From: Phycisphaerales bacterium
GTDB lineage: Bacteria; Planctomycetota; Phycisphaerae; Phycisphaerales; SM1A02
NCBI GenBank assembly: GCA_022446905.1
Contig: JAKVBT010000005.1
Coordinates: forward strand, 593,239 to 657,238
DNA: 64,000 bases
Direction: 5' to 3'
Within the stretch, counting starts at the first letter, position 1; each line of letters starts with the position of its first letter. Shown piece after piece: positions 1,835-18,312 of the stretch. The position numbers and the translations under genes were made by a program. The notes under the pieces are model-generated. The model was not told the origin of the DNA and did no database searches. It was given only the letters and a program-made list of their open reading frames with translations.

Positions 1835-1836
1835 GC

Positions 1837-3498
1837 TTACGCTCCCTGCGTCGTCTGGGCCTTCGCAGGCTTTTTCTTCTCGCCACCGCCGCCGAGCACC
1901 CGGGACATCTCCTCAATCGAAGTAATGCCAGCGGCAACTCGCTTGAGCGCGACTTCTTGCATGAGCACCATACGCATGCGGCGTGCATGCATCATGGCAG
2001 CCTTCAGATCGCCTGTTGCGAGAATTTGCCGACACTCTTTGTCAATGGGGAAGACTTCAAAAACGCCTATGGCCCCGATGTAGCCCGTACCGCGACAGCT
2101 CTGGCAGTCTTCAACATCATTACGCACCTGAACTTTGCCACTTGATCGGTAAACACTGCTTCCTTCAGGAAGGCGGAGGCTCTTTGGATCCGCAGGCGTG
2201 AATTGCTGCTTGCAATCAGGGCAAAGAAGTCTCACAAGACGCTGACATACAGCCGCCCGTAGATGTTTCGCTGCCTTGGGAACATCGCCAACAAGCCGGA
2301 CCCATTCCCGAATAGCCATGGCGGCGCTGTCTGCATTGAGCATCATGTATTGAAGCGTGCTGTCGCTGCCAGCTGCAGCAGTAATCTTCGCTGTCTCTGA
2401 ATCAAGCAACTCGGCCAAAACGACGTCTGGATCGCGCCGGAGGATGGACTGCAGCGCAGTGGCATAGTCAATGTCGGGATTGGAGGGATCAAAGGTCACA
2501 TGATCGACACCTTCGAGGCCAAGTAGAGGGCGACGCTCAAGTGTCTTGATATTGCTGGTGTAAGCATCATGCCTGCCCAACATGGCGTATCCGGTTGCAG
2601 AAAGACCCTGTCCGGCAGGGGCTGACAACAAGACGATGCCATGCCGCTCATGATCGGGCATCAACTCATCAAGCGTTTCTTTCTGAGATTCCTCAAGGCC
2701 TAACTGGGCATACGGAATCGACACATTCTTTGCTTGGTCAAAATCAATTCGGACTGCCTGGCCACGAGAACTTCCAGTGACTGACATGCGTGCCTCAACG
2801 AAGCCATGGACGCCCTGAATGCTGAACTCTCCATATTGCGTATGGCGTGTGTCCTGGAGATCCATCCCAGCCAAGCTCTTGAGCAGGTTGACAACCTTGG
2901 CACCGGCCTCTGGATCAATCGAATCCTGACGCTCTGACATCGTGTGCACAAATCGGGCACTAGCCAAACCGCCTTGGCTAAGGGCCATATTGATACGGCT
3001 TGCTTCGAGTTGGAGCCCTGGCACGAGGATGGACTCGAGGTCTAGCCAAGTTTCCAACTGTGGATCTTCCTTAGCTGGAGCATCAAAGATTCCTGAGGGC
3101 CCCTGAAACTGAAGGACCGCATCCTTCGATGAACGCTTCTTTCGATGTGTGCTGGCCTGCGGATCTTTCTTAAACAGGTTGTACTGCTGATCTTCAGGCA
3201 CAGCGGCATTCCTGACTTTCCAGTAACACAGAATGGGCAGCAACATCAACAGCATGCCCACAAACCAGGACACATAAAAACTCCAAGCGAAGAGCATGAC
3301 CGACAGGCCTGCAATGCCTGCTGCCATATGGGCCATATTCCATTTGTAATGATCGAGACGAAGTCGCCTGCTATCTGGATCCAACTTGGTTCCCACAACC
3401 CATGCCCAGGCCACAAAAGGTGCCCACATCAAGAGTGGCTTCCATGGGCTCAGCAAAAAGACTGACGTCTCCGCGAGAGTCATCCCAGTATCCATCAT
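1837..3498 (-). CDS. Membrane-anchored GspE/PilB-like protein with degenerate ATPase motifs
   Basis: 553 residues. Two or three hydrophobic stretches lie near 16-35 and 55-92, unlike the normally soluble PilB/GspE. The rest follows the type II secretion/type IV pilus assembly ATPase fold. The Walker A position reads SAPAGQGLSATGY (~291-303) where active enzymes have GPTGSGKTTTLY, so the catalytic Lys and Thr are missing. The Walker B region reads RRDPDVVLAELLDSETA, where the usual sequence is DPDVVMIGEIRDLETA. The zinc-binding module is kept: CPDC near 422 and CQSCRGTGYIGAIGVFEVF near 465. I infer a non-hydrolysing scaffold or regulator. It overlaps pilT by 4 nt and precedes the CvpA-like gene. 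A catalytically active PilB is not present in this window. Confidence 0.75.
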   Translation of the reverse strand: MMDTGMTLAETSVFLLSPWKPLLMWAPFVAWAWVVGTKLDPDSRRLRLDHYKWNMAHMAAGIAGLSVMLFAWSFYVSWFVGMLLMLLPILCYWKVRNAAVPEDQQYNLFKKDPQASTHRKKRSSKDAVLQFQGPSGIFDAPAKEDPQLETWLDLESILVPGLQLEASRINMALSQGGLASARFVHTMSERQDSIDPEAGAKVVNLLKSLAGMDLQDTRHTQYGEFSIQGVHGFVEARMSVTGSSRGQAVRIDFDQAKNVSIPYAQLGLEESQKETLDELMPDHERHGIVLLSAPAGQGLSATGYAMLGRHDAYTSNIKTLERRPLLGLEGVDHVTFDPSNPDIDYATALQSILRRDPDVVLAELLDSETAKITAAAGSDSTLQYMMLNADSAAMAIREWVRLVGDVPKAAKHLRAAVCQRLVRLLCPDCKQQFTPADPKSLRLPEGSSVYRSSGKVQVRNDVEDCQSCRGTGYIGAIGVFEVFPIDKECRQILATGDLKAAMMHARRMRMVLMQEVALKRVAAGITSIEEMSRVLGGGGEKKKPAKAQTTQGA

Positions 3499-4634
3499 GA
3501 AATGCCCTTGAGTCGCATTTTGAGTTCTTCAGGCTTGGGAGTTGCTTCCATCGCTACACGATGGTGGATCCATTCGGCCTCGACGAGGTTGACCAGTGCG
3601 CTTGTGAAGTCCACCATGCCTTCCTCTTGCCCCTTGCGAATGAGATCCAGCAGTTCGCCCTCACGACCTTCCAGAATGTACTTCTGTACTGCTGGCGTTC
3701 CAATGAGGATTTCAAGTGCAGGGATCCGTGGGCTTGTTTCGGGTCGCAGTGTTTTGAGCAGCTTTTGGTAGATGATGGCCCGGATGTTGTACGCCAACAG
3801 CTTGCGGATCTGCGGAACTTCACCCTCATCGAACAGATCGTAGATTCGCCCAAAGGTCTGCCATGCGGATGATGCGTGGATAGTTCCGAACACAACGTGC
3901 CCGGTTTCAGCAGCTCGAATAGCTGCTTCAAAGGTTTCCTTATCACGCATTTCACCGACAAGCACCACATCAGGGTCTTCACGCACCAGTGCCCGAAGTG
4001 CCTCATTGAAGTTGAGGCAGTCAATGCCAACTTCTCGCTGATTGATGGTGGATTTTGACTCTGTAAAGATGTATTCAATCGGATCTTCGATGGTCACAAT
4101 ATGGCAACGGCGACGCTCGTTGACGTGCTGCAGCATTGCCGCAATCGACGTGCTCTTGCCCGAACCTGTGACACCCGCAAAGAGAATGAGGCCGTTAGCG
4201 GCAAGAGCGATTTCACCTAGCGAGTCAGGAACATGCAGTTCCTCAAAGCGCTTGATTTCCGAGGTGATTAAACGGCAGGCATAGGAGACCTTGCCGCGAG
4301 ACATAAAGATGTTGACGCGGAACCGATGGGAATCGTCATAGTCATAAGCAATGTCCATCTGGCCATGCGAGGCGAAGATCTGATACTGATATTCATCAAG
4401 AATGTCTTTGGCAATCTGATGCGATTCGTCATGGGTGACCGGATCAGTATCAAGCGGCTTGAGCTCGCCTCGGAGACGCACGCGGGGGGGGCCGTCCGCC
4501 TTGATATGCAAATCGGAGGCCCCATAGGTAATGCATGCTTTGAGGTACTTGCGGTAGAGCTTCTCCCCAGCACCTGGCTCAGTGCCCTTGGCATGGTGCA
4601 CAAGGCGTGCTTCGGCATGGATTGGGCTGGACAC
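3495..4634 (-). CDS. pilT: Type IV pilus retraction ATPase PilT
   Basis: 379 residues, the usual PilT length. It hydrolyses ATP as a hexamer at the cytoplasmic base of the type IV pilus to depolymerise pilin and retract the fibre. Visible motifs, in order: GASDLH at the N-terminus, Walker A GVTGSGKST (~150-158), Asp box TIEDPIEYIF, Walker B DPDVVLVGEMRDKET, and His box GHVVFGTIHAS. Translation starts at GTG (4634-4632) with an AGGAG-like element upstream. It heads the minus operon and overlaps the pseudo-PilB gene by 4 nt, suggesting coupled translation. An eight-base C tract on the coding strand (4484-4491) lies in the N-terminal part. Confidence 0.93.
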   Translation of the reverse strand: MSSPIHAEARLVHHAKGTEPGAGEKLYRKYLKACITYGASDLHIKADGPPRVRLRGELKPLDTDPVTHDESHQIAKDILDEYQYQIFASHGQMDIAYDYDDSHRFRVNIFMSRGKVSYACRLITSEIKRFEELHVPDSLGEIALAANGLILFAGVTGSGKSTSIAAMLQHVNERRRCHIVTIEDPIEYIFTESKSTINQREVGIDCLNFNEALRALVREDPDVVLVGEMRDKETFEAAIRAAETGHVVFGTIHASSAWQTFGRIYDLFDEGEVPQIRKLLAYNIRAIIYQKLLKTLRPETSPRIPALEILIGTPAVQKYILEGREGELLDLIRKGQEEGMVDFTSALVNLVEAEWIHHRVAMEATPKPEELKMRLKGIS

Positions 4635-4722
4635 GAGCGTGGATCTCCTGATCTCCCAACTTTCGGGGAGGCGTAGGTGAACAGGTTATCGTAGCAGTCA
4701 CGGGGGTTCATCGCGGATTGCC

Positions 4723-4751
4723 TTGACACCAAGGGGCCTTCTGGCGATCAT
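4723..4751 (+). promoter_or_regulatory. Candidate sigma70-type promoter of guaB
   Basis: A perfect -35 box TTGACA lies at 4723-4728, then a 17-nt spacer, then GATCAT at 4746-4751, which matches the -10 consensus at four of six positions. Transcription would begin about 7 nt further on, at or next to the guaB ATG (4758). The mRNA would then be leaderless or nearly so, consistent with the lack of a Shine-Dalgarno sequence there. A short inverted repeat CCTTG/CAAGG (4721-4734) overlaps the -35 box and could be an operator. Confidence 0.35.
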
Positions 4752-4757
4752 TCTTCA

Positions 4758-6248
4758 ATGGAGCGGCTCTCATTACCCGAAGGCATCACCTTTGACGACG
4801 TTCTGCTGATTCCACAGCGGAGTGCCGTTACCCCTGATCAGACCGATCTCTCGACGAACCTGACTCGGCGGATCCGCCTTGAATTGCCCCTCCTGTCTGC
4901 CCCGATGGATACTGTCACGGAATGGTCCCTCGCCATAGCGATTGCTCAAGAGGGCGGCATCGGCATCATTCACAAGAACCTGAGCATCGAAGAGCAGGCC
5001 GCCCAGGTCACCAGGGTCAAGCGCAGCGAAAACGGGATCATTGTTGATCCAATCACCCTCAGTGCTACTGATACCGTGCAGAGAGCCATTGATCTGATGG
5101 CAGCCCATAACGTCAGCGGCTTTCCGGTAACCGACAGTGGCCAAGCAGATGGGCGAGTCTCCGGAATCCTGACCAGAAGAGATATCAACTTTGTTGAATC
5201 TACTGACAGCCCCGTTGGTGAGGTGATGACGCCTCGCGAGCGATTGGTCACCGCGACACCCGGCATTGACCTGATGGCGGCTGAGGCCAGCATGAGTCGT
5301 GGCCGAGTTGAAAAACTACTGCTTGTTGAAGATGGCGATCGGCTCGCTGGCCTGATCACGATGCGGGATATTGAGAATGTCCGCCATCACCCGCGAGCTT
5401 GTCGAGATGACCGTGGCCGACTCCGTGTCGGTGCTGCTGTGGGGGTTCATCAATATGAGCGTGTCGAAGCGCTGATCGCTGCAGATGTCGACGTGATTAT
5501 CGTCGACACAGCCCATGGTCACTCAGACAACGTCATTGACTCTGTTCGTGAGATTAAGTCTCGATACGACATTGATCTCATTGCTGGCAACGTAGCAACC
5601 AAACAGGCTGCTGCCGATCTGGTTGAAGCTGGAGCAGATGCGATCAAGGTCGGGATTGGCCCGGGATCGATCTGTACAACACGGATTGTCAGCGGTGTCG
5701 GCGTGCCACAACTTTCTGCCATTGCTGAAGCCACCCTTGCCTGTGAGCCCGAAGGCGTCCCTGTGATCGCTGACGGGGGCATTCGACAGAGTGGAGATAT
5801 TCCCAAAGCCATTGGCTTTGGGGCCAGTTGTGTCATGCTCGGATCACTCTTTGCAGGCCTTGATGAAAGCCCCGGCGAACTGGTCCTGCACCGTGGCCGG
5901 CGATACAAGTCATACCGCGGCATGGGGAGCATCGGTGCAATGCACCAAGGCAGTGCCGACCGATACAGCCAGAGTCATATCACTGATAGTGGAAAGTTTG
6001 TACCCGAAGGCGTTGAAGGTCGGGTTGCATACCGTGGCCCACTGGATGCGTATGTCTTCCAACTCATGGGCGGCCTCCGCGCAGCACTTGGCTATTGCGG
6101 ATGTTCATGTATCGAGGAACTCCGGCAACGAGCTCAGTTTGTGCGCTTAAGTGGTGCTGGGCTTGTTGAATCCCATGCCCACGACATTCAGGTTGTCAAA
6201 GAAGCCCCCAACTACTCGGTCGGCGAATCGCTCGATAGCGCCCAATAA
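4758..6248 (+). CDS. guaB: Inosine-5'-monophosphate dehydrogenase
   Basis: 496 residues, typical for bacterial IMPDH. It oxidises IMP to XMP with NAD+, the committed step of guanine nucleotide synthesis. A catalytic (beta/alpha)8 barrel is interrupted by a CBS pair at about 93-205 ([11 protein letters not shown] and a later [19 protein letters not shown]). The active-site loop [10 protein letters not shown] (~299-308) carries the catalytic cysteine. [10 protein letters not shown] and the flap region [15 protein letters not shown] follow. The ATG has no obvious Shine-Dalgarno sequence. The gene stands alone between the divergent pilT operon and the GTPase locus. Confidence 0.97.
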
Positions 6249-6336
6249 TCAACCGGCCATGCCTCATCCTGGCCTGATAGAACCCGCGACCTCGGCTGGG
6301 GGAACGTTTGGGGTAGCACAGACGTACTGCATTACA

Positions 6337-6362
6337 TAGCGACCAAGTCAATTCGGTCGCTA
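6337..6362 (+). promoter_or_regulatory. Inverted repeat between guaB and the GTPase operon
   Basis: TAGCGACC (6337-6344) and GGTCGCTA (6355-6362) form a perfect 8-bp inverted repeat with a 10-nt spacer. No T-run follows, so it is a weak terminator candidate for guaB. Its position 42 nt before the GTG at 6405 also fits an operator for the downstream operon. The remainder of the 155-nt gap holds nothing recognisable. Confidence 0.35.
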
Positions 6363-6404
6363 CACTCAGGCGAACGTCTGGAGGGTTTCCCAATTCTTGA
6401 GAAT

Positions 6405-7346
6405 GTGCCCTTGGAACTGACAGACTGGACAGAGGGCCAAATCGACGCCCGGCGCGATCGAATTGTCATTCTGGGTCGTCGCAGGGCTGGGAAGACAGTC
6501 TTTCTATCGCGTCTGTACCAAAAACTTTGGCAAGGCAACGAAGGCGTCTCTGCGCGTGCGGGGGACGGCGCCATGCATGAGCGATGCATGGAGATCTGCG
6601 AGGGTCTCTCCCAAGGCAAGTGGCCTGCGGCAACCGCAGGATCCATTCTCAGTGAACTCGAAATCACACATGACGAGCACAGTATTCAAGTAGTCATCCT
6701 CGATTACCCAGGCGAAGTTTTTCGCCGTGCGTTTGTCGACGGTGGCAGGGACGAGCAGTCACTGACACTCCTTGAACACATCGACCGCGCTGCTGGCGCG
6801 ATCATGCTCATTGACCCAGACAACCTCGAGGGGGGCTCCACAGCAGAGCAGGTTGATGATGACTACGGCATGGTGCAAGCAGTTGATCGGATCCGAAAGA
6901 GTCCTGGCGGAGCAAGCGTCCCTGTTGCTGTAGTTCTGACCAAATGTGATGAACATGTGCAACTGATTCGAGAAGCAGGCACTCCACGCGATTTCATGGA
7001 GTCAAGAATTCCCAATCTCTTCCGATACGGAGGAAAATTGCGCGTCTTTGGCTCCTCAGCAGTGCGCATCCGTCGTGACGCGATTGGACGCGGCATCCCC
7101 AACACTGAAAAGCCGGCGCGAGGCTTGATTGAACCGCTTCGCTATTGCCTGCGCGCCATCAAATTAGCATCAGATGTGCCCGCTTCTCCGCACCAACCAC
7201 CCACGCCGAAAGTCATCGCACCTGCCTACAACATCCCATCACGCGTCACACCTGCTCGACGCGGGATTCCCACATGGGCCATAGTCTGTGGTGCTGTTGC
7301 CCTGGTATTTTTAATTGTCGTCATTGTGCTGGTACTTGCAGACTAA
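6405..7346 (+). CDS. Tail-anchored TRAFAC-type GTPase, first gene of the plus arm of the GTPase/ExbBD locus
   Basis: 313 residues. P-loop G24-RRRAGKT31 (GxxxxGKT), switch II/Walker B D100-YPGE, guanine-specificity motif T179-KCD182, and a possible G5 motif SSA (217-219) together mark a P-loop GTPase. Residues ~289-311 are a hydrophobic C-terminal anchor after a proline-rich linker, which places the GTPase in the cytoplasm at the inner membrane. It resembles the conflict-system GTPases linked to GAP1 proteins (recalled family similarity, not searched). The assigned start is GTG 6405. A GGAGG at 6380-6384 sits 8 nt before an in-frame ATT (6393), so a slightly longer N-terminus is possible. Its stop overlaps the next ATG by 1 nt (TAATG). 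Confidence 0.7.
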   Translation: MPLELTDWTEGQIDARRDRIVILGRRRAGKTVFLSRLYQKLWQGNEGVSARAGDGAMHERCMEICEGLSQGKWPAATAGSILSELEITHDEHSIQVVILDYPGEVFRRAFVDGGRDEQSLTLLEHIDRAAGAIMLIDPDNLEGGSTAEQVDDDYGMVQAVDRIRKSPGGASVPVAVVLTKCDEHVQLIREAGTPRDFMESRIPNLFRYGGKLRVFGSSAVRIRRDAIGRGIPNTEKPARGLIEPLRYCLRAIKLASDVPASPHQPPTPKVIAPAYNIPSRVTPARRGIPTWAIVCGAVALVFLIVVIVLVLAD

Positions 7347-9229
7347 TGCGATGTGACACGCACTTACTTGGTTCACGTGATGGATATCGCCCACTTGCAT
7401 GGTGCACTCCAATCACCAATGAGGATCTCCAACACCTTTCTCACGTCGATCTTGGTCAGCCAAGAAGCAGCGATGTCCCAAACCTCGATACACAAGTAAC
7501 TGCCTGCTGTCGCACACTCCCCAGTGGTTGCATCGCATTGACACGATGCATTCCAGGCGGCCAGGATGATGCGGGGCGAGCGACTATCGCCTTTCCAACA
7601 TTGGTCATTGGCCAACATGATTGGCACAAGATTGTGGCGCCGGCACTGAGCCATGTGCTGCACGACACGCGCATTTGGCATCGACAAGAATTTGCTGATG
7701 GCTCACCAATCGAATTGCCTTTGCCTCAGCAGGCACTGCCCTTGGACTATCAAGGCGCCCAATTATTCGACCTTCTGATCCACCATAAGCGTCAGCGACA
7801 AGGCCCATTGCTCATAAAAGCAGAGTCCACGCTGCTTCCAGCACTGAGCAACATGCTCAGCGCATTCTCTTCACAAGAATCAATGGCATTGCAGTGGGGC
7901 GTTGGCGTCTTCTCACCAGCTCGCTGGATGGATATTGCGCAGTGCGCCCCTGGTGCCACAGGTCTTTCAAATAGTGCTGTTCAACTTGACCATCCGTGGT
8001 TTGACACCTCGAATGCTCGTTTGATCGGGGGGCCACTGATTCCTGCAAGCGCTGCTCCACAGCCGACCTCCGCGCCACCTGTATCCGCTTTGCTCACGCG
8101 CCCAGCAAGACGGCGACTCGGCCTTCCTGTGTGGATCTTGTTGGCACTGATAGTGCTCCTCCTTGCCAGCGGGTTGCTCTGGATCAGTCGCACGGATAAG
8201 CCGACTCAGCCCACAGAACCCACAGCCTCGGCCATTACGCCTTTGCCGGCGGAGACCTTGACAGCAGGTGATGAGCATGAGGAATTGCACGGTTCTCTTG
8301 TTGCTGCCCAGCAATCTGAAGTCCATGGCAACGGAGCACTTCATACCACTGCAGAAGATGACTCCGCAAATATGGAGTCCAAAGAAGTATCGGCAGCCAA
8401 GCTCATTACTGAGGAAACACAAACTGGCAAAGAAAAGCTTGATTCAGACCCGCCTGTAAGCCCAACTGATGATGATGCCCCAGTAAATGAGCCAAGCACA
8501 GTGGATGTTGCCACCGCCACTAATTCAGCCCCCCAAGTGCAGTCGCCCTTAGTCCTGCCCTCGCTCCCCGTGCAGGTACCGCAAGCAGAGGTTCTGAACA
8601 ATTCCGACTTTGCTCGTGTACTCCAAGAACTCACCGATGCATTGAATGATGCCACAACGCAGCTTGGCGGTCGCAAGCAGGCCTGTCATCTGGATCAACT
8701 GGACAAAGACATCAAGGAACTCGCAGAGGACACCATGACCTTTGGAGCCGACTTTCTCAGCCCCGCTGCCAAGGAAGAAGCAGAAAAACTCTGCCAGACA
8801 ATGAGCGGACTGAAGCATTTTCAGCGAGCACTATCAATCGCCTCTAGGCCGTCCGTTCATATGTATGCCTCCACCTATATGACTGCAACAGCCATCACAG
8901 CTACGACTGAAAGGGCGACTGCGGTTGCCGGAGAAGGTGATTGGTTTTTGCAGCCACTACGAATGCGTCGACAAAACCTGAAAAAACTTCTTGAACGACT
9001 GCAATGTCTCGGCGAACTGACAATCTTGATTGACGAAGCATGGGATCAGACGGCTCACAGGTCGCTTAAAACAGCGACCCAATGGCTCAACCAATACGCC
9101 CCTGATATCTGCCAGGTCGATGGACCTTGGGCCACCATGGAACATCGGTTTGCCCGCCCAACGGACACATTGCCCCGAAAGGCAACCCTTGATTCGATAC
9201 AGATTTTGAATGCCGCGTTGAATGATTGA
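7346..9229 (+). CDS. Single-pass membrane protein with GAP1-N-like N-terminal domain
   Basis: 627 residues from the ATG overlapping the GTPase stop. The longer frame back to 7145 lies inside the GTPase gene and is not used. The N-terminal ~150 residues contain GSRDGYRPLAWCTPIT, LPSGCIALTR and DDAGRATIAFPTLVI. These recall the 'question-answer' segments of GTPase-associated protein 1 N-terminal domains (from memory). One membrane helix lies at ~262-281, followed by an acidic, Thr/Ser/Pro-rich linker to ~400 and a helical C-terminal domain that I do not recognise, probably extracytoplasmic. Co-transcription and translational coupling with the GTPase suggest it is the GTPase partner that passes its state across the membrane (inference). 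Confidence 0.6.
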   Translation: MRCDTHLLGSRDGYRPLAWCTPITNEDLQHLSHVDLGQPRSSDVPNLDTQVTACCRTLPSGCIALTRCIPGGQDDAGRATIAFPTLVIGQHDWHKIVAPALSHVLHDTRIWHRQEFADGSPIELPLPQQALPLDYQGAQLFDLLIHHKRQRQGPLLIKAESTLLPALSNMLSAFSSQESMALQWGVGVFSPARWMDIAQCAPGATGLSNSAVQLDHPWFDTSNARLIGGPLIPASAAPQPTSAPPVSALLTRPARRRLGLPVWILLALIVLLLASGLLWISRTDKPTQPTEPTASAITPLPAETLTAGDEHEELHGSLVAAQQSEVHGNGALHTTAEDDSANMESKEVSAAKLITEETQTGKEKLDSDPPVSPTDDDAPVNEPSTVDVATATNSAPQVQSPLVLPSLPVQVPQAEVLNNSDFARVLQELTDALNDATTQLGGRKQACHLDQLDKDIKELAEDTMTFGADFLSPAAKEEAEKLCQTMSGLKHFQRALSIASRPSVHMYASTYMTATAITATTERATAVAGEGDWFLQPLRMRRQNLKKLLERLQCLGELTILIDEAWDQTAHRSLKTATQWLNQYAPDICQVDGPWATMEHRFARPTDTLPRKATLDSIQILNAALND

Positions 9230-9244: not shown

Positions 9245-11389
9245 ATGAAAGTCCTATTTCCAATGATCGTCTTCACGCTACTTACTGGATGCGCGAACCA
9301 GCAGGCGTCAATGTCATTAGATGAAGAGCCGCTGTCGAGCTCAAAAGTCCCTGATCGGAATCGGGCGGTCACTCTTGCCCCAGTGCAATCTGTCGCACTA
9401 CACACGCCACCTCAAAGGATCAATCCGTCGCAGAATGTGGCGAGCACTTCGATCACACAGTCCTCCTCAACTGCTCGCAACAACTCCACATCAGCCACAC
9501 CTGATACAGGCAAGCCTGATCAGAGGATCGCCCCTGCGCCACCGACAGGAAGTGATCGGCAGCAGACTGATCAATCAAAGACCCCAACAACCGGTGAATG
9601 CCAAGGAGGCGATGGCGAAGAAGGTGGGGCAGGTCAATCATCATCGCCTGGCTCCAGCCAGTCTGGGCTGGCTTCCTTCGCTGCCACTTCTTCCACCGGC
9701 TCTTCTTCAGGAGAGACGGCCGATGCCGGCCTCAAGACAGTCTCCGCCGCCTCGTCCTCAAACAACAAAGCACCCGCCTCCGCAGAACAAGGGTCTATTG
9801 ACACACAAGTTCCTTCTGCGCAAGATGCAGCAGCATTAGGCTCTGCCATGCCCGCGGCAACAAGCGTCCAAGGTCTACTTGGCCCTGCTTCAACTCGCAG
9901 CCCAGAGGGTGACGCAAACCAAAGCGACCCATCATTGGACAGCAAAAAGCAAAGCGGCAGCCTGTCTGACGCCCAAGGGTGGAAGACTGCCCCAGTTGCA
10001 ATGCCAACTGGACAGCCCAGTTCACCCAAGAGCACACCTGATCAACAAGCAGATGTGAATTCCCCGGAAGCTGAGATTGGCCATGGAACTGGCCCAAGCG
10101 GACGCAGTGCTGGGCAAGCATCCGGCGCATCCGCTGGTGGCGGTGGGCATAGTGGGAACCAGAAAGCCGCAACTGGTGGCGGCGCAACAGAAGACCGAAC
10201 CAGCGATGCATCGATTGGTGATGGTGTTACTGGAGCCAATTCGCTGCCAAATGATGAGGCACCATCAAGACCATCACTGACGCTGCGTAGGCTCGCTCAG
10301 ACCATGTCGTCTCAGGATCATGATGATGCGCACGCGCTCCCTGAAATCGATGAAGGGCATATGGACCCAAGCCGACTTGGGATTGCAGAAGAGGTTTTAA
10401 GTGACCACGCAGCAACAGCTCCCATACGTGGCGTGTGGCGTCTCGTGGAATCTGGCCCAGATGACTTTCTGCCAACTGGATCCCAAGAGCGCTTCATTGG
10501 CATTGACCCCGATCGTGGTGAAATTGTCACTCTGTTGTCATGGAATGATGGTGAGGTGGTACTGATGGCTGAGTACGCCGCCGACATCAGCCAGCGCGTT
10601 GCGGTGATCCAGGAAACACAGGATCGCGCCTCACGTCTGCCTGAACCTGGACAACTGCTCCCGGGGGGAGTCCGTCTTACATCAACAACAATGCCTGGAC
10701 CATGGACATTGAATTGGCGTCGCGCAGGAACGAGCCTTCGGATTGGAGAATCGTTATATGTCGCAGAGGATCCCGCGATCATCGACAATCTCATGCGTGG
10801 CGAGGTCTTTCTGCCCACTCAACCCCTGCGGCCGACAGCCCAGCTTGGCCCAGCACCCATCATCGAGAAATCGCAAGAAGCAACTTCTGTTGACTTCTTC
10901 GGTGTGCAATCCGAGGGACGTTGGGTGTGCTATGTCATTGATATCTCTGGATCCATGGCTGGCGATAAACTGGAGCGCCTCAAGCAGGAGTTGCGCGAGT
11001 CAATCTCCAATCTCCCTCCAGGAGTCTCCTTTGCATTGGTGTTTTTCTCAAGCGATGCCCAGGTCATCGCAGATGGCTGGACACGATCACACTCCGTAAT
11101 TGCCTCATCCATCCTTCGCAAGGTCCGCCAAGTTGGTGCTGGTGGCGGCACCGATCCTGCAGAGGCATTTCGGTGGGCCTTTGGGGCACTTGAGCCTGCC
11201 CCAGACACCATCTATTTCATGACCGACGGAACAGTCGCCACTGCGGATCTGCCTGGGCTATTACGGAATCTCAATGCGTCACGACCGCGAGCCAGAATCC
11301 ACACCATTGGCTTTGGCGCAGATGCTGACATTAGTCTCCTTCAGATGATCGCCCAACAGCACGGTGGCAGCTTCGCTGTCGTGCCGTGA
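9245..11389 (+). CDS. Lipoprotein with long disordered linker and C-terminal von Willebrand factor A domain
   Basis: 714 residues. The lipoprotein signal ends in LLTGC16. Residues ~20-350 are low-complexity (Ser, Gln, Ala, Gly, Pro, Thr) and probably disordered. A small beta-rich domain (~390-530) leads into a vWA domain from ~555. Its metal-ion-dependent adhesion site is complete: D566-ISGS, the GGGTDP threonine, and MTDG. It starts 15 nt after the preceding gene and ends 4 nt before the convergent stop of the minus arm. The linker is long enough to span the periplasm, so a lipid-anchored ligand-binding tether is plausible. The ligand is unknown. Membrane choice (inner or outer) cannot be read from the sequence. 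Confidence 0.75.
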   Translation: MKVLFPMIVFTLLTGCANQQASMSLDEEPLSSSKVPDRNRAVTLAPVQSVALHTPPQRINPSQNVASTSITQSSSTARNNSTSATPDTGKPDQRIAPAPPTGSDRQQTDQSKTPTTGECQGGDGEEGGAGQSSSPGSSQSGLASFAATSSTGSSSGETADAGLKTVSAASSSNNKAPASAEQGSIDTQVPSAQDAAALGSAMPAATSVQGLLGPASTRSPEGDANQSDPSLDSKKQSGSLSDAQGWKTAPVAMPTGQPSSPKSTPDQQADVNSPEAEIGHGTGPSGRSAGQASGASAGGGGHSGNQKAATGGGATEDRTSDASIGDGVTGANSLPNDEAPSRPSLTLRRLAQTMSSQDHDDAHALPEIDEGHMDPSRLGIAEEVLSDHAATAPIRGVWRLVESGPDDFLPTGSQERFIGIDPDRGEIVTLLSWNDGEVVLMAEYAADISQRVAVIQETQDRASRLPEPGQLLPGGVRLTSTTMPGPWTLNWRRAGTSLRIGESLYVAEDPAIIDNLMRGEVFLPTQPLRPTAQLGPAPIIEKSQEATSVDFFGVQSEGRWVCYVIDISGSMAGDKLERLKQELRESISNLPPGVSFALVFFSSDAQVIADGWTRSHSVIASSILRKVRQVGAGGGTDPAEAFRWAFGALEPAPDTIYFMTDGTVATADLPGLLRNLNASRPRARIHTIGFGADADISLLQMIAQQHGGSFAVVP

Positions 11390-11393
11390 CGCG

Positions 11394-12308
11394 TCATTGA
11401 GCCGTTGCTGTGCCTTCCCGAATGCGATCGTGGTATCCACGGTCTGCGGGCATTATCCAGGGCGTAACGTCATACGGAAATCGTGATTGCACCAACGCAT
11501 TTCGGAAGAGCTGAAATGCGGCATAACTATCTGCGCTGACACGCATCGAGACTACGTGAAAATCAGGATCGAGCACTGAAAGGGCATCTGTGATTTTGGC
11601 AACCGATGCTCTTGTTTCGTCTATGGGGATACCCCCGCCCGACAGCAGGCGAACACGCCGCTCAATGTCTTGTGTCCCTGTGCGAAATTCGCAACCTTCA
11701 TGAATGATCGCTTCTACAGGCTGCTGAAGGTCGATGGCCTCGGGATTCCATGTCGTCCAAAATACACATCGGTCTCCGATCGGATCGCTCGACTGATGCC
11801 AACTCGACCAATCATTGAGTATGTATAGGCGGCCCTCAGCCAAAACGACTTGTACTGGAAGACGCCCCGCGAGCTCTCTACGCTTTGGCGTTCGCAGAGT
11901 GACATCTCGCAATTGCGTCATTCGCTGCAAGTCTTTCTGAAGCGTTTGAGTCTGTGATCGAATCGTGTCAAGATCAACCGGCGCATTCTCAGGCGCGACA
12001 ATGGCATGCAAGCGATCGAGCAACTCCTCTCGCTGATCAATCTCTTTGTAGAGGCGGTCAAGTTGTGCTCGGCGTGATGTGATCATGTCTGCCACTAGAT
12101 CATCTGGCTGAACTTCTGGGCTCGTATTGACTGACATCGTCTCCTGAGTTGCAAGCAACGGCACTTCTGCTGTTTGTCGACTTCGCACACTGGCGATCAC
12201 GGCTGCAAGGATGGCCACAAAGATGATCAGGCCAAACATGTTGCAGATCGTGTCAAGCAGCAGATCAAGACTGCCATCTTCTGTCGTGTTTCGCCGACGC
12301 ATTTTCAT
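11394..12308 (-). CDS. ExbD/TolR/MotB-like energy-coupling protein, paralogue 2
   Basis: 304 residues with one N-terminal helix (~20-42). Its start, SLDLLLDTICNMFGLIIF, carries an acidic residue (D15 or D19) at the membrane border, as in the proton-path Asp of ExbD, TolR and MotB. The periplasmic part has a predicted coiled coil (~60-125) and a C-terminal domain that lacks the OmpA-like peptidoglycan motif of MotB. Its ATG overlaps the stop of the other ExbD-like gene by 1 nt (TAATG), so both subunits are probably made together. It is the last gene of the minus arm. The role in converting ion flow to movement with the ExbB-like channel is inferred from family and order. Confidence 0.65.
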   Translation of the reverse strand: MKMRRRNTTEDGSLDLLLDTICNMFGLIIFVAILAAVIASVRSRQTAEVPLLATQETMSVNTSPEVQPDDLVADMITSRRAQLDRLYKEIDQREELLDRLHAIVAPENAPVDLDTIRSQTQTLQKDLQRMTQLRDVTLRTPKRRELAGRLPVQVVLAEGRLYILNDWSSWHQSSDPIGDRCVFWTTWNPEAIDLQQPVEAIIHEGCEFRTGTQDIERRVRLLSGGGIPIDETRASVAKITDALSVLDPDFHVVSMRVSADSYAAFQLFRNALVQSRFPYDVTPWIMPADRGYHDRIREGTATAQ

Positions 12309-13048
12309 TACTCAGCAGGGAAACGTGTGGTTGAAGCAGACTCGGGAATAAGATCTAGTCCCATAGACAAATTGCGCAGTGCGGGGTCAGTCTTTATTTG
12401 GCGTTGCAGCGCTTCCCAGATGGGAAGGCCGGACGGCTTCAACACAATAAGCAGATGCCGGTCGGATAGATCAGACTGCCCGCGATACCAAGACAAGAGT
12501 CCAGTGGCAATTTGTTCCGGATCACTTTGGCGAATTGCAATAGGGGGGTCATTGGCCTGATCAGTTGAGACAACACACCGCCCCGCGGCCAACTCTGCAA
12601 CGATGGGGCGGGTTTCTTGATTCGCAATCAAATAGACCAGCCGTCGATTGCGCATTGTTTCAATATCTCGACGCAATTCATCTTGATCAGCAAGAAGTAA
12701 TTTGGCGACCTGAACATCCCCGTCCCGCATCGCTGACAGTCTGGCTGATTTGGTGGCATCGATGCGGCGACGCAGTGACCGAAGTGTGTCATCAGCCTCC
12801 AAAATGTTTTGAGTCAGCACAGCCAGAGCAGCACGCTGATCAGCAGTGTCAGCCGGAATGGCTACGCCCGTGGCTTGCGCAATATCTGGCTCTGGAGATA
12901 CTGGCTCAATGCGTGCGACCGCTGCTCGCCCAATTTGCAGAAGCAGCAGAAGCGTCACCACAAGAACAACGCCAATGGTGCCAATCATGACATCCTGAAA
13001 AGCAAAAAAACGAACCGGGGATCCAGATCCTCGATGCCGCCGAGCCAT
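12308..13048 (-). CDS. ExbD/TolR/MotB-like energy-coupling protein, paralogue 1
   Basis: 246 residues when started at the ATG that overlaps the ExbB-like stop (TGATG). A frame extension to 13108 would run into the upstream gene and is not used. A basic tail is followed by RFFAFQDVMIGTIGVVLVV, where Asp19 sits at the beginning of the single membrane helix, the position of the proton-accepting Asp in ExbD/TolR. Residues ~55-125 look helical and charged, and the rest is a compact periplasmic domain of unknown type. The QDVMIGTIG helix differs clearly from the LDLLLDTICN helix of the neighbouring paralogue, so the two are probably distinct subunits of one channel. Confidence 0.65.
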   Translation of the reverse strand: MARRHRGSGSPVRFFAFQDVMIGTIGVVLVVTLLLLLQIGRAAVARIEPVSPEPDIAQATGVAIPADTADQRAALAVLTQNILEADDTLRSLRRRIDATKSARLSAMRDGDVQVAKLLLADQDELRRDIETMRNRRLVYLIANQETRPIVAELAAGRCVVSTDQANDPPIAIRQSDPEQIATGLLSWYRGQSDLSDRHLLIVLKPSGLPIWEALQRQIKTDPALRNLSMGLDLIPESASTTRFPAE

Positions 13049-13929
13049 CAGGAGGCCCCGTCGACACGCACTCGACTGACGACATTCCGAAGTGCGTATT
13101 GCCTGCAATCATCCAGAAGCAACTCATCTGCTCGGCGAACAAAAGTCTGAGCGAGATAAATCAAAAGCGCTGCAACCAGTCCTTCCCCGGTGGTGATAAA
13201 TGCGGTAGACAGACCAGCAAGAACTAGCGTCAGTTGTGAAGTCAGTGCATCGACAGAAGCATTCCCCGCATCTAGCACGCCACCAAACTGTGAAATCGCC
13301 TCTGTAAGTCCAATGATGGTGCCAAGGAATCCCAATACAGGGATGGCCCAAATAAAACCACGCAGAATCGTGTAGCCGCTGTCCATCGCGGCCTCATCAG
13401 CTTCCGCAGCACTGTCAAGCATCTCATCGATGTCGCCAATTCGTCCTATGTTGCGAATGGATCGAAGCGCATCCAGCACACGATTGAGCAGTAGAAATTG
13501 TCGCGGCTCATCAACAGCAGCTTCAATCGTATTCATTACCTGATCTGCTGAACCCACTGTCAGTGCAAAGCCAGCTTCCTCAGGCATAAAACGCAAACGC
13601 AATGCCGCTCGCTGCGCTTTTATTTTGAGCGATTTCAGCAGAAGAATGGCAATAGACCAGCAACTCAACGCAGCAATTGGTATTGGAATGCCTGAGTACC
13701 CCGTTAGAAGTTCCCAAACAATGCTCCCGAATCCAGTGTCCCTGGCAAACCAACTCACTCCATACATGAACCCCATAAATGCCACGCCCAACAAAAATGA
13801 TGAGAATGCAGATGGAGTTGTAAAGCGACCGCTTGGAAGGCCAAAGCGTCGTTCGGGATCGCATGAAGCAAAGGACAGCACAGGCTTCGTTGGGCGGTCC
13901 CAGGCTGGTGGTGGAGTTGCGTCGGCCAT
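13048..13929 (-). CDS. MotA/TolQ/ExbB-family proton channel subunit
   Basis: 293 residues. Hydrophobic segments lie at ~44-63, 78-98, 192-212 and 235-260. The third contains IPVLGFLGTIIGLTEAIS and the fourth LAGLSTAFITTGEGLVAALL, which are the conserved TolQ/ExbB/MotA channel-helix features (the P-x-LG-LGTV-G motif and a Thr-rich helix). A cytoplasmic domain lies between helices 2 and 3, as in TolQ. Such proteins form a pentameric ion channel around a dimer of ExbD/TolR-type subunits; two candidates follow immediately. It overlaps both neighbours by 1 nt. No TonB, TolA or flagellar genes are nearby, which argues against ordinary TonB or Tol function. Confidence 0.85.
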   Translation of the reverse strand: MADATPPPAWDRPTKPVLSFASCDPERRFGLPSGRFTTPSAFSSFLLGVAFMGFMYGVSWFARDTGFGSIVWELLTGYSGIPIPIAALSCWSIAILLLKSLKIKAQRAALRLRFMPEEAGFALTVGSADQVMNTIEAAVDEPRQFLLLNRVLDALRSIRNIGRIGDIDEMLDSAAEADEAAMDSGYTILRGFIWAIPVLGFLGTIIGLTEAISQFGGVLDAGNASVDALTSQLTLVLAGLSTAFITTGEGLVAALLIYLAQTFVRRADELLLDDCRQYALRNVVSRVRVDGAS

Positions 13930-16799
13930 TAAGGTGAAAAGAGTACCGCAGGGGTCTCCGGCAGGTTGAGCGCGCCCATGGGGATCCTATTTGAAGCATC
14001 TAATTCCACAGGCACCAACTGCCAGCGGCCGGCTTCATCAGAAACGAGCACCATCAGTTCTTGTGGGGCGGTCCCAGCTGGCCACATCCCTTCCATATGA
14101 TCGCCCTGCGGAATTAATACCCCTGCAGGCACATGTGAGATCATCGCAGCATCCATATCTCGGAAAGAAGCAAGAACACTCGTGCGAATCGCATCAACAT
14201 CAGGCGATTGAGCCAAGGCTGTGGCTGCCTGCGTTCGGATACGTCGCTGCTGAGGTGATGTGGCCGCTGCAGCCATGGCCGGCCAATCCGATTGTGCAGC
14301 CATCGGAGCAATGACGCTGAGGTCATTGATCCATCGATCAACAGGCTCCACTGCTTTGGGAGCGATGGGGCGAAGTGTCTCAAGAGCAACAAGCCACGCT
14401 TGTTTTGTCGCATAAAGTCGCAGCAGTAGATCGAGCTCATCAGTGGAAACAACATCTTCAACCATTTGCAAGACAGCAATCGCACAGCCGCGCGGCGATG
14501 TCGCCACCGGCCTTTCTATCCAATCACTGAGTGCTGATGACAGCGCAACAAAATCAAGCTGGCCTATTGGGCCGACGGATGCATCAATTGGATCAGGATC
14601 CAGCAGTTCTGGAGGAAGTGAGAACGACTCAAGATCTTCAATAATCCGAATTGACCGCGTGTTCTCAGGGGGCCTGACATAGATCCAACCACCCCGCAAA
14701 ATGGGCATACGTGCCAAATCGAGCAGATGGGTTTTCTCTACCAGCTCATGCGGTCCTTTATGAAACTGTGGAGAACTCAAAGCTGTCAACATGGGCAACA
14801 TCTTGACGGCGGCTTGCCCATAGGGCGAGCCATCATGACGTTCCATGTGATTCCGAAGTGCTGTCGCAGCTCCACGTGCTAAGCGGGACATCGAATCAGA
14901 ATCGGAACTCTGCAGGGCAGCTTCTACTGCGGGGCGAACAACCATCCGCCAATGTGACAAAGCTACCGCTGCTTCAGCAGCACGGCGCCCACGATGCCAC
15001 TGATGTACGGGGCCGGTATCAGCGAGCACATCGAGATGCTCATCAAGCAATGACTGCCACACACGCAACCATTCCTGTTCGCTCGCTGGCGTTTCTGCCA
15101 ACTGCCCAAGCAAAGCATCTGCCTTCTCAAGAGACTCCAGTCGTAACTGTGCACGCTCCATACGATTAGTGCGCATTTGAGCAAGTTTCTCAATGGCCTG
15201 GCTGATGTCAGGCTGTGTACCTACTGGTGAACGACGGGTCTTATCGAGCATCGACTGGACATCGTCGAGTTTCATCCACTCAGCCCATGCATCTGGATCA
15301 AGTGACTTGCCACCCCCTGGGGCAGACTCCTCGAGTCGGCCACGAGCGACTGCGAGCACATCAAGAGCGCTTTGTCGCTCCACCTCATAGGCTGCACGCC
15401 GAAGATCATCCACCTGATCACGCGTCTGCTTAAGCGCTTTGGCATGCTCGGAAATTCCCAATGATGCCACTTGCTCAAGCAAATCAGTTGCTTGCTCAAG
15501 CGATGCGATGCTCTCTGGGTTGATAGATGTGAGCTGGGTTGCTTGGTCGATCCATTCAGCCCCTTGGGCGACATCAGCAAGCCGCTGCTTTTGGGCCTGT
15601 TCAATTCTTCCTTTGAGCGATGCCAATACCGGCGAGTCTGTCAGACTGGATTCCGAGGCTTGACGCCATGTCCTAAATGCTGATTCAAGATTCCCTGCCT
15701 CTAGATCTGATTGAATTGCAGCCGCCATGCCTTCAATCGTCTGCTGGTATCGAGCTGATCGTAATGAAAGGTTGATTGCGATTACAGCGAGCACCGCCAT
15801 GGCCAATATGGCTGTCAGCCCAAGCGCGAAGCGACGCCGATGTCGCCGTTTCGCAGTGGCATATCGGTGCGCCACCCGAGACTCCAACATGGGTGTCATG
15901 GAGACATCACTAGCGCGTAAATCGGCGTAGAGCGGCTCAAACTCACTGACTGGACGATCTTCATCAAGCAATTGCTCGAGGCGCTCGACATGAAGTCTTT
16001 GCGATGCACGCCTCTGGACTGCTTCCTGCTGGCGGTCAAGCCAGCCTGTCAGTTGCCCCATCGCCGGCTGCAAGACAGAGGCAACACCAGCATCCGCACC
16101 AAGCGAACGAACCCGATCAAGGAGGGCACGAGCCAAAGGCTCATCCATCGCGAGCCACGCCCGATACAACTGACGATCAAGTTCTTCCATCTCTTGCGCA
16201 GCAATCTTACGTGCGCCTAATGCAAGGGCATCATCAAGTTCTGCAAGCAACGCCCGCCCGCCAGATCCACCGGCATTGATTGACTCAAAAACCTTTCGAC
16301 AGTGACGAATATCAGCGAGATCGCCAGCGCCAATACAGGCCTGGACACGCGGCTTCCACGCTTGCACGACATCCTGTTCAATCTGCTCAACAGCATCCGC
16401 CCAAATCGCTTGTCTTGGCTCAAGACGGCGAAGGGTGCGTAAACATCCAAGTCGATCGGCAGCCGACGCAGATGACACCGCAGCACTTCGCCATGCTGAG
16501 ACAGCCGCGGCATGTGCAGATGCGGTTGCATGCAATCTTGCTAACTCATCAAGGCTTTGGTCATCCGGAAAGTCCAATTCGTCCATGAGTGCACGAACAG
16601 CTGAACTCTGCTTGAGTTGAATGGCATGTGCAACAATGTTGCCTCCATCAATGTTGTAGGCGGCAGCTTCACGTCCGTACCCGGCTTTCGCCCATGCAAG
16701 ACAGCGATCAAGATCCCGTTTCATCCTCTCCATAGATCGGCGCAGTTGTGCTTCATTGCCAGCATCGAGTGCTTGTTTGACTTCATGACACGTTTTCAT
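13929..16799 (-). CDS. Very long coiled-coil membrane protein of the GTPase/ExbBD locus
   Basis: 956 residues from the ATG at 16799, which overlaps the upstream stop by 4 nt (ATGA). The longer frame to 16874 lies within the preceding gene. Residues 1-~315 are helical, Ala/Arg/Glu-rich and probably cytoplasmic. One membrane helix at ~322-345 follows a basic stretch (RRHRRRF). About 350 residues of heptad-like coiled coil come after it, then a more compact C-terminal domain (~700-956). I recognise no family. By position between GAP1-like and ExbB-like genes, it may act as the stalk linking the cytoplasmic GTPase module to the ion-driven channel (inference). Confidence 0.6.
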   Translation of the reverse strand: MKTCHEVKQALDAGNEAQLRRSMERMKRDLDRCLAWAKAGYGREAAAYNIDGGNIVAHAIQLKQSSAVRALMDELDFPDDQSLDELARLHATASAHAAAVSAWRSAAVSSASAADRLGCLRTLRRLEPRQAIWADAVEQIEQDVVQAWKPRVQACIGAGDLADIRHCRKVFESINAGGSGGRALLAELDDALALGARKIAAQEMEELDRQLYRAWLAMDEPLARALLDRVRSLGADAGVASVLQPAMGQLTGWLDRQQEAVQRRASQRLHVERLEQLLDEDRPVSEFEPLYADLRASDVSMTPMLESRVAHRYATAKRRHRRRFALGLTAILAMAVLAVIAINLSLRSARYQQTIEGMAAAIQSDLEAGNLESAFRTWRQASESSLTDSPVLASLKGRIEQAQKQRLADVAQGAEWIDQATQLTSINPESIASLEQATDLLEQVASLGISEHAKALKQTRDQVDDLRRAAYEVERQSALDVLAVARGRLEESAPGGGKSLDPDAWAEWMKLDDVQSMLDKTRRSPVGTQPDISQAIEKLAQMRTNRMERAQLRLESLEKADALLGQLAETPASEQEWLRVWQSLLDEHLDVLADTGPVHQWHRGRRAAEAAVALSHWRMVVRPAVEAALQSSDSDSMSRLARGAATALRNHMERHDGSPYGQAAVKMLPMLTALSSPQFHKGPHELVEKTHLLDLARMPILRGGWIYVRPPENTRSIRIIEDLESFSLPPELLDPDPIDASVGPIGQLDFVALSSALSDWIERPVATSPRGCAIAVLQMVEDVVSTDELDLLLRLYATKQAWLVALETLRPIAPKAVEPVDRWINDLSVIAPMAAQSDWPAMAAAATSPQQRRIRTQAATALAQSPDVDAIRTSVLASFRDMDAAMISHVPAGVLIPQGDHMEGMWPAGTAPQELMVLVSDEAGRWQLVPVELDASNRIPMGALNLPETPAVLFSP

Positions 16800-17620
16800 G
16801 CAGCCGCTCCCAGCCAGACCCACAGCAGGATGACCAAAATGACTGCAAAAGCAGCGAAGAGCAGCCAAGGCCACATGCGGCGATCTGGGGCCTCCATGCG
16901 CACCAGAGGCATATTGATGACCTCCGGCTCGATGACCGGGGAGGCAGATGTCGATGGGGCAGCTGGAGGATCAGACCATGGGATCGATCGTGATTTTAGA
17001 TCCTCGCCAACATCGTCTGACTCGAGAATGATCACAGCAATACCGTGGCTGCTGGCCGGTGGACCAGCAGAGAAGGTCCACGACCATCGGTCAACTGGCT
17101 GCATAGCAGCTTCGATTGATTGAATGGCCTTGATTGCAGATTGCCCCTGGGGCAGCGCAATGACGCGCCGACTCGATTCATCTTGGCATTGATGGAGTAG
17201 TGGAGCCCATTCATGGGCTGCTTGTAGACCCGCTCCAGAAGCGATTGGCAAATCCTGCAATCTGGCATTTTCAGGATTGCACGGCCAGTTAGTGCACATC
17301 AGTGGACTGGCAAGAAGAGTGGCGGGTCCACTACATCGCTGATCTGCTCGAATTAACACATGATGCGTCACGCGGTTCAGCCCATCTATTGCAATGGGAG
17401 GCGCCTTATGAACACTGGTGAGTACCGACCACTGTGCGCCATGGAATCTCATTAGGCGATGCGACAGCGACGCATAACCCGCTCCATCTTCATTGACATA
17501 CATCCCAGAGGATTGCTCGAGTTGTTCCAACACGTGAGCGGGCACACCAGGACTTGCATGAACGGTTCGAAAACCGACCATGCCCACCTGATCGTCCCAT
17601 GTGTGTATGACATGGAGCAT
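16796..17620 (-). CDS. Tail-anchored protein with GAP1-N-like fold, second copy in the locus
   Basis: 274 residues. Phrases such as YASLSHRLMRFHGAQWSVL and a following GLNRVTHHVLI resemble the signature of GTPase-associated protein 1 N-terminal domains, where an N-R-x-x-H-H-x-x-x element is usual (family resemblance from memory). The last ~24 residues are a hydrophobic helix with only a short tail, so the soluble part faces the cytoplasm. Start and stop overlap its neighbours (TGATG at 17620; ATGA at 16796-16799). Together with the first GAP1-like protein on the plus arm, the locus has two membrane-bound candidate partners for one GTPase. Confidence 0.5.
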   Translation of the reverse strand: MLHVIHTWDDQVGMVGFRTVHASPGVPAHVLEQLEQSSGMYVNEDGAGYASLSHRLMRFHGAQWSVLTSVHKAPPIAIDGLNRVTHHVLIRADQRCSGPATLLASPLMCTNWPCNPENARLQDLPIASGAGLQAAHEWAPLLHQCQDESSRRVIALPQGQSAIKAIQSIEAAMQPVDRWSWTFSAGPPASSHGIAVIILESDDVGEDLKSRSIPWSDPPAAPSTSASPVIEPEVINMPLVRMEAPDRRMWPWLLFAAFAVILVILLWVWLGAAA

Positions 17621-18144: not shown

Positions 18145-18192
18145 TGCAGCGTCTGTGAGTCTACCGCTGAGGAACTGAGCGGGTGAGACCAA

Positions 18193-18266: not shown

Positions 18267-18312
18267 CCTAAGGCACCAAATGGTATCGCCTCATCCTTTA
18301 GAATCGTGCCTG

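Follow-up and report, generated by a model that had tools for sequence, protein, structure and literature searches.

The stretch of DNA analysed in this study (referred to as the window) comprises 64,000 nucleotides from a Phycisphaerales bacterium and carries a cassette of nine genes arranged in two rows (Table 1). The plus-strand row consists, in order, of the genes for a DO-GTPase, for a partner protein with a single transmembrane (TM) segment and, third of three, for a vWA lipoprotein. Four bases past the lipoprotein gene lies the opposite-strand row, tail to tail with it, encoding a zinc-ribbon-like protein, a GAP1-N2 protein, a large TM protein, a MotA/TolQ/ExbB-family protein and two small TM proteins. 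As the lipoprotein gene is convergent with the motor operon, it is not co-transcribed with the motor genes.

Table 1. Features of the cassette and of the lipoprotein (window coordinates)
Feature	Position	Strand	Basis or remark
DO-GTPase no. 1, single C-terminal TM helix	6405-7346	+	Pfam DO-GTPase2 1.8e-10, DO-GTPase1 5.2e-10
Membrane partner protein, possibly with a GAP1-N2-like cytoplasmic N-terminus	7346-9229	+	weak profile match
vWA lipoprotein ORF	9245-11389	+	714 aa, ATG start
Predicted signal peptide and lipobox LTGC, lipidated Cys16	9245-9292	+	sequence, pattern
Low-complexity S/A/G/P/T/Q tether, about 371 residues	9293-10405	+	composition
Lipocalin-like beta-barrel domain, residues about 390-520	10412-10804	+	AlphaFold2 model, fold comparison
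Short flexible linker, residues about 521-545	10805-10879	+	low pLDDT
vWA domain with MIDAS, including stop codon	10880-11389	+	Pfam, model, invariant columns
MIDAS D566/S568/S570	10940-10954	+	D-x-S-x-S
MIDAS T636	11150-11152	+	
MIDAS D661	11225-11227	+	
TolR/ExbD-position protein 2, one N-terminal TM, Asp19 (LLLDTICNMFG)	11394-12308	-	invariant Asp
TolR/ExbD-position protein 1, one N-terminal TM, Asp19 (FxxFQD)	12308-13048	-	invariant Asp
MotA/TolQ/ExbB-family channel protein	13048-13929	-	Pfam MotA_ExbB 5e-13
Large protein, one TM near residue 349	13929-16874	-	profile match in 57 of the best 80 of 237 loci
GAP1-N2 protein, C-terminal TM	16796-17620	-	Pfam GAP1-N2 1.7e-7
Zinc-ribbon-like protein, 199 aa	17620-18219	-	matches part of longer DO-GTPase2 proteins elsewhere

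An earlier, sequence-only reading of the lipoprotein ORF had described a lipobox, a linker of about 330 residues and a vWA domain with a complete MIDAS. At the N-terminus, a short hydrophobic stretch is followed by the lipobox L-T-G-C, located by pattern, and a lipid anchor at Cys16 is predicted. No stretch of the protein exceeds the TM threshold, and an N-terminal TM helix with the SHLS/His motif is absent, the lipobox signal being present instead. The C-terminal vWA fold was confirmed both by Pfam (VWA_3, E 6.4e-13, residues 562-709) and by structure comparison of the model with solved vWA domains (VIA Z 21.1, rmsd 1.7 Å over 156 residues), and D566-x-S568-x-S570, T636 and D661 of the MIDAS are all there. 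The AlphaFold2 model of barrel and vWA, built from the window sequence and 29 homologues, had a mean pLDDT of 81.7, with values below 50 at model residues 1-24 and 155-180. Lipobox and MIDAS thus stand as described; the linker is indeed very long, but it measures about 371 residues and is separated from the vWA domain by a barrel that had gone unmentioned.

The tether (residues 17 to about 387) is made up of 17% S, 13% A, 11% G, 8% P, 8% T and 7% Q, and hydrophobic residues account for 12% of it versus 32% of the folded tail. Its longest low-hydrophobicity run is 163 aa, as compared to 64 aa in the next ORF, the control being 50 largely non-overlapping window ORFs of at least 150 aa. In 11 full-length orthologues the tether is 371, 399, 423, 430, 467, 468, 475, 476, 489, 495 or 555 residues long, that of the window being the shortest, and in 19 proteins of a second collection, 8 of them common to both sets, it ranges from 214 to 725 residues, which is also the range for all 22 proteins measured (L058 was excluded). 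The composition of the tether is conserved, while its sequence and its length are variable. A constant length had been proposed as the sign of a measured reach; as the length is not conserved, the tether is no ruler and that idea was rejected. By our estimate, 371 residues in a fully extended chain would span more than 100 nm. The tether of one homologue (L042) contains a long GGSQ repeat. A W-x-x-x-P motif (W246 in the window protein, codon 9980-9982) was seen in the tethers of all nine same-genus sequences, by eye and with no chance control; it is missing in L037 and L042, and a scan of the contexts of tether Trp residues found no W-x-x-x-P in most of the more distant loci. The recurrence of this motif within the genus, noted by eye as it was, qualifies the notion of the tether as a pure spacer.

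A fold search with the two-domain model covered the vWA domain only, and the barrel was therefore modelled and searched separately. The model of its approximately 130 residues (AlphaFold2, 32 homologues; model mc701105c4335) had a pLDDT of 85.1 and a pTM of 0.80. It superimposed on 4qrl with a VIA-align Z of 9.8 (rmsd 2.5 Å over 96 residues) and on 5jk2 with a Z of 8.0, the latter being the structure of TP0751, for which we know of no vWA or motor link. Lipocalin-like chains dominated the list of structure matches, in which the best Z was 9.8 and the Foldseek E values were 0.017 or worse, with no match at 0.001 or better. The Pfam lipocalin family did not match the window protein or its homologues in L069 and L092, and the barrel sequence is poorly conserved, with 4 invariant columns in 33 rows. 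The middle domain therefore resembles bacterial lipocalin-like proteins, the resemblance being one of fold only.

A Cys is found at the place of the lipobox in all 11 full-length orthologues, 8 of them recognised by pattern and 3 by eye (L036, L041 and L043). In a second set of 20 complete lipoprotein ORFs, the lipobox was located by pattern in 16 and by eye in L058 (where it lies beyond the 140 residues scanned), L090, L092 and L093. Unusual lipoboxes were observed in L073 and L089. The five MIDAS residues show no variation in any of the 30 aligned rows, the window included; this count speaks for near full-length matches, since 13 of the 42 vWAC-matching ORFs were kept out of the alignment because they were partial, matched too weakly or had another architecture. 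At a greater distance the picture changes. The protein of L069 has a degenerate vWA-like C-terminus without a MIDAS, those of L092 and L093 consist of lipid anchor, tether and barrel and end after the barrel without a vWA, and Pfam found no vWA in L069 or L092. Four distant cassettes (L094, L097, L112 and L121) encode TM-anchored vWA proteins without a barrel, and no lipobox was found in them. Homologues with no linker or lipobox, or with an unconserved MIDAS, were to count against the sequence-only reading: the anchor, the long tether and, in the 30 rows, the MIDAS are kept, but the reading does not extend to these distant forms. As L069, L092 and L093 lack the MIDAS or the vWA, the vWA is dispensable to some members of the lipoprotein family, in which the anchor, the tether and the barrel are the constant parts; in the wider cassette, the vWA also occurs without any of these three.

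DO-GTPase no. 1 scored 41.3 bits against a Pfam cutoff of 27. Its membrane partner is predicted to have a cytoplasmic N-terminus, one TM segment, a low-complexity stretch and a C-terminal region beyond the membrane; Pfam gave no match for the window protein, a homologue in L073 matched GAP1-N2 with E 3e-4 and 21.3 bits (below the 24-bit cutoff), and profile comparison with GAP1 gave a probability of 31%, so that a GAP1-like nature of the partner is indicated weakly only. The GAP1 protein itself matches N2 only in the window (31.8 bits, cutoff 24), and its homologues in L073, L092 and L112 match N2 and M. The starts of homologues of the large TM protein suggest an ATG near 16799; Pfam has no family for it. 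Pfam zinc-ribbon matches of the 199-aa protein were all below cutoff. Outside the genus, the protein at its position mostly has about 400-500 residues, counted stop to stop (extremes, 286 and 746), and three of three longer homologues tested match DO-GTPase2 above cutoff; the 199-aa protein is a shortened form that has apparently lost its GTPase part in this genus.

As to the motor genes, the TM Asp is invariant in 71 of 71 loci for protein 2 and in 73 of 73 for protein 1, and T204, T246 and T247 of the channel protein are conserved in 80 of 80 loci (best 80 of 237 relatives). In the MotAB, ExbBD and TolQR motors, according to PMC12204202, Thr residues form a ring that is faced by an Asp of a TM segment; the conserved residues here are a TM Asp in each of the two small proteins and Thr in the channel protein. 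Membership of the small proteins in ExbD/TolR by sequence was not found with Pfam: ExbD (PF02472) matched neither the 10 scanned members of the protein 2 family nor the window member of the protein 1 family, and it was not among the matches listed for other protein 1 members (25 of 33 families, ending at one member, E 0.52).

In the sequence-only reading, the lipoprotein looked like a sensor or gripping arm driven by the channel genes next door. Of the 502 stretches matched in a scan of a species-genome collection with two motor peptide patterns, 237 encode a relative. We kept the best 80 loci, whose titles mostly name Planctomycetota or its subgroups, with Verrucomicrobiota and Lentisphaerota also represented. 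In these best 80 of 237 loci, many of which run into a contig end, profiles matched an ExbD1-like gene in 73, an ExbD2-like gene in 71, the large TM protein in 57, GAP1 in 53, the zinc-ribbon gene in 51, and a vWA or barrel in 42; both GAP1-N2 and DO-GTPase genes are members of the locus. Seven same-genus loci were retrieved with the motor side included: five have all nine cassette genes in the same order, and contig ends cut the remaining two (L034 and L035).

Adjacency could be scored in 63 of the best 80 loci, L069 with its degenerate vWA included; of the 17 left out, 11 had no ExbD2-like gene on the expected strand and 6 had less than 500 bp of downstream sequence. A convergent lipoprotein gene adjoins the ExbD2-like gene in 6 of 6 loci with a motor identity of 60% or more, in 26 of 27 at 49-60%, in 2 of 3 at 45-49% (both barrel-only forms) and in 0 of 27 below 45%. 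Thus, where the motor is close, 32 of 33 loci have it tail to tail with the motor genes, as against none of the 27 with distant motors. L057, an exception retained in the counts, has a motor of the clade and no lipoprotein within 8 kb downstream. On a tree of 81 motor rows, the vWA-lipoprotein label, which is confined to one clade of 41 rows (SH-aLRT 99), required 2 changes versus 21.9 in shuffles; this was a "quick" tree with midpoint rooting, long branches, 16 unlabelled rows and a warning about L088.

Among 61 genomes near that of the window, a close motor (E<1e-100) and the full-length lipoprotein occur in the same 11 genomes; in another 14, the motor matches are weaker and the full-length lipoprotein is absent. 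As 8 of the 11 belong to one genus, the independent co-occurrence events are few; beyond that genus, both occur in three genera of the same family. In one genome (G035), the lipoprotein and the close motor are on two separate contigs, so the pairing survives loss of linkage. Another genome of the same genus (G006, 93% complete), also retained in the counts, has neither, which, together with the absence of the lipoprotein from L057, indicates that the system is not essential. DO-GTPase no. 1 and the TM partner accompany the lipoprotein in all nine vWA-lipoprotein loci with at least 4 kb beyond it (L069 included). They are found in neither of two barrel-only loci and in none of 18 loci that lack the lipoprotein and have at least 5 kb downstream, 13 of which have the zinc-ribbon gene and GAP1, although these profiles were built from close relatives and diverged forms could have escaped. 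It would therefore seem that an older system of GAP1, GTPase and motor was joined by the vWA lipoprotein, which brought with it a GTPase and a partner of its own. Conserved synteny and phyletic co-occurrence place the link with the channel genes beyond chance.

Taken together, we consider it somewhat probable that a trans-envelope machine of Planctomycetota, driven by protons and controlled by GTPases, has this lipoprotein as its lipid-anchored end piece. Domain anatomy, conservation, synteny, co-occurrence and conserved motor residues are observations; the localisation of the lipoprotein, the use of protons, the transfer of force and its direction, the ligand and the action of the GTPases on the lipoprotein are inferred. 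The motor would consist of one MotA/TolQ-type protein and two different TolR/ExbD-type proteins, and the large TM protein, GAP1-N2 and, in relatives, the zinc-ribbon DO-GTPase would form scaffold and switch. The DO-GTPases may gate this inner-membrane motor via GAP1 and the TM partner, and the DO-GTPase that came with the vWA lipoprotein (no. 1) and its single-TM partner would probably communicate the GTPase state to the lipoprotein through the inner membrane. The lipoprotein itself would be exported along the Sec/lipoprotein pathway, its most likely destination being the outer membrane, where a disordered tether of 200-700 residues would let the barrel and the vWA head pass the peptidoglycan, either inward to the motor or outward to the surface. 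The motor may then drive the lipoprotein, or the lipoprotein may sense the motor, and the vWA might grip a partner through its metal site while the motor is active. The sequence-only idea of a driven arm is plausible and well supported by association, with drive by the channel and gripping at the surface as its conjectural parts.

Other explanations have to be weighed against this one. DO-GTPase and GAP1-N2 genes entered the literature as biological conflict systems (PMC7159879), and the locus might be an anti-phage system in which DO-GTPase/GAP1 senses infection at the membrane, the motor acts as a depolarising or Zorya-like effector and the vWA lipoprotein serves as a surface sensor. This would fit the fast divergence of GAP1, the large TM protein and the TM partner, which share 26-31% identity over their aligned parts within the genus versus 67% for the motor, and it would fit the weak ZorA profile matches of the motor. 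However, a PADLOC search of the nine cassette proteins at E 0.01 gave ZorA (2.3e-4 at best) as its only hit, with ZorB, ZorC/D and ZorE not found, and Pfam detected no effector or FNIII component in the cassette. Moreover, wherever contigs reach, the locus keeps a constant place in the genus, with IMP dehydrogenase on one side (4 loci) and an FHA/SpoIIE gene on the other (4 loci). We regard a defence role as unlikely.

Envelope maintenance in the manner of Tol-Pal, with an outer-membrane anchor lipoprotein pulled by the motor in division or budding and with no surface role, seems to us quite improbable. The full-length lipoprotein is present in just 11 of 61 related genomes, which argues against a core maintenance function, the adhesion-type MIDAS is retained in all 30 rows, and Pfam found no OmpA/Pal, TolB or TolA domain in the cassette, even though a TolQ-like gene, two TolR-like genes and a lipoprotein are assembled there, the tether is long enough to cross the periplasm and the lipoprotein tracks one motor clade. 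Alternatively, the barrel could be the business end, capturing a hydrophobic ligand for motor-energised uptake in TonB fashion, and the vWA would only dock to a receptor. Its lipocalin-like fold and its persistence, among the lipoproteins, where the vWA or the MIDAS is gone (L069, L092 and L093) would agree with such a role. But just four of the columns in the 33 barrel rows are invariant, the assignment to lipocalins is one of fold at a best Foldseek E of 0.017, the vWA proteins of L094, L097, L112 and L121 do without a barrel, and no TonB-like or receptor domain was detected in the cassette by Pfam; we find this very unlikely.

The end-piece reading can be compared with several known systems. 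The architecture had been called unusual among vWA proteins, and this has to be narrowed: in 2025, vWA proteins tethered by a TM helix and encoded next to TolQ-like and paired TolR-like genes were predicted to be force transducers in PVC bacteria (PMC12204202), and a similar locus, L045, is present in this very genome. According to the main text of PMC12204202, those proteins are anchored by a TM helix, many have an SHLS/His motor-binding motif, and their domain II has about 100 residues. The window lipoprotein shares with them its C-terminal vWA fold and its synteny with a tolQ-like gene and a pair of unlike tolR-like genes, the window pair being without Pfam ExbD; it differs in its lipobox, its 371-residue tether, its additional lipocalin-like domain and its DO-GTPase/GAP1 genes, the word "GTPase" not occurring in that main text. 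We found no Pfam match to the accompanying TPR protein in the large TM protein, which occupies the corresponding place. L045 resembles the published type, with ExbD (2.5e-15; one ExbD gene identified), MotA_ExbB (2.1e-28), a protein whose TPR match is below cutoff and a vWA protein that likewise matches Pfam VWA below cutoff (0.0018) and in whose TM helix a His was noted by eye. The window cassette is a different locus, and its motor profile gives no match to L045 at E 0.1.

The DO-GTPase/GAP1-N2 systems of Kaur et al. 2020 (PMC7159879) have membrane components and vWA proteins among their partners and occur in planctomycetes. The window locus is like them in its DO-GTPase, GAP1-N2, membrane components and vWA protein, and unlike them in that their FNIII component and named effectors were not found in the window cassette (no fn3 in its nine proteins by Pfam). 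The terms MotA, ExbB, TolQ, ExbD and "proton channel" do not occur in the main text of PMC7159879, and "lipoprotein" occurs once, in the title of a reference. Among the matches listed, judged by titles and abstract openings, we found no publication that joins the motor with the GTPase system or describes the lipid-anchored form. TP0751 of Treponema pallidum is another lipoprotein in which a disordered region is combined with a lipocalin fold (PMC7521688; structure 5jk2).

In Myxococcus gliding, AglRQS and the vWA outer-membrane lipoprotein CglB act (PMC4488436, PMC13104615), with MglA as the GTPase (PMC3169522). The window locus is like Agl-Glt in kinds of parts, namely one MotA-type protein, two TolR/ExbD-type proteins, a GTPase and a vWA lipoprotein, the likeness to CglB being one of description. 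The MotA-type protein is matched by Pfam and its two partners by position and TM Asp only; AglQ and AglS match Pfam ExbD (PMC3169522), whereas the two small TM proteins of the window do not, and the window GTPases belong to another family than MglA. A bolder proposal, which we hold to be doubtful, is a GTPase-switched, proton-driven gripping or gliding machine of Planctomycetota that arose independently of the Myxococcus focal-adhesion motor from the same kinds of parts, with a lipid-tethered vWA adhesin on a disordered arm; if true, the DO-GTPase/GAP1 "conflict" genes would serve, here at least, to control a mechanical device. Planctomycetes are reported to show surface-dependent motility (PMC11481906), for which the locus is a candidate.

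With respect to these systems, our results suggest that: the DO-GTPase/GAP1-N2 "conflict" systems and the vWA proteins of TolQR-like motors, two published predictions, are parts of one conserved locus; the GTPases gain in the motor a concrete candidate output, and the vWA motors gain a candidate switch; and a vWA head can also be presented on a lipid-anchored tether of 200-700 residues, in contrast to the TM anchors described so far.

An FHA-GAF-SpoIIE phosphatase gene adjoins the cassette, and strong matches to this phosphatase were found at the same cassette end in five homologous loci (L051, L053, L054, L055 and L090). The phosphatase is possibly a regulator. The zinc-ribbon-like protein lacks the GTPase domain present in its homologues, and a short form is found in same-genus loci too. 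On the IMP dehydrogenase side, the order of the ATPase pair and IMP dehydrogenase matches that in loci L038 and L039, with 87% identity for the first T2SSE-family ATPase.

Elsewhere in the window, a long N-terminal part without assignment precedes the lyase domain of an aromatic amino acid lyase domain protein.

Features of the window and of other loci (L-numbers)
Feature	Location	Strand	Remarks
Two T2SSE-family ATPases	window 1837-4634	-	adjoin IMP dehydrogenase
IMP dehydrogenase	window 4758-6248		adjoins the ATPases
Zinc-ribbon-like protein	window 17620-18219	-	no GTPase domain
FHA-GAF-SpoIIE phosphatase	window 18280-19977	+	adjoins cassette
Aromatic amino acid lyase domain protein	window 61087-63594	-	lyase domain, residues 344-806
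Second copy of the GTPase, TM partner, vWA lipoprotein trio	L043 (G004:C245) 57-4998		
vWA protein, N-terminal GYF domain, TM helix	L112 12375-13550		Pfam GYF_2; near motor genes
vWA protein, N-terminal GYF domain, TM helix	L121 3464-4648		GYF by eye; near motor genes
vWA-motor locus	L045 (G000:C45:730000-744000) 4507-8150	-	ExbD, MotA_ExbB, weakly TPR-like protein, TM-anchored vWA

Genome G004, which has a second copy of the trio, gave a single motor match, and two vWA proteins carry a GYF domain. In the motor tree, L083 and L108, from records titled Bacteroidia and Nitrospiraceae, were placed amid planctomycete motors; these are possibly misbinned contigs. The source genome itself holds another vWA-motor locus (L045), which resembles the published type of TM-tethered vWA proteins, predicted force transducers, beside TolQ/TolR-like motor genes (PMC12204202).
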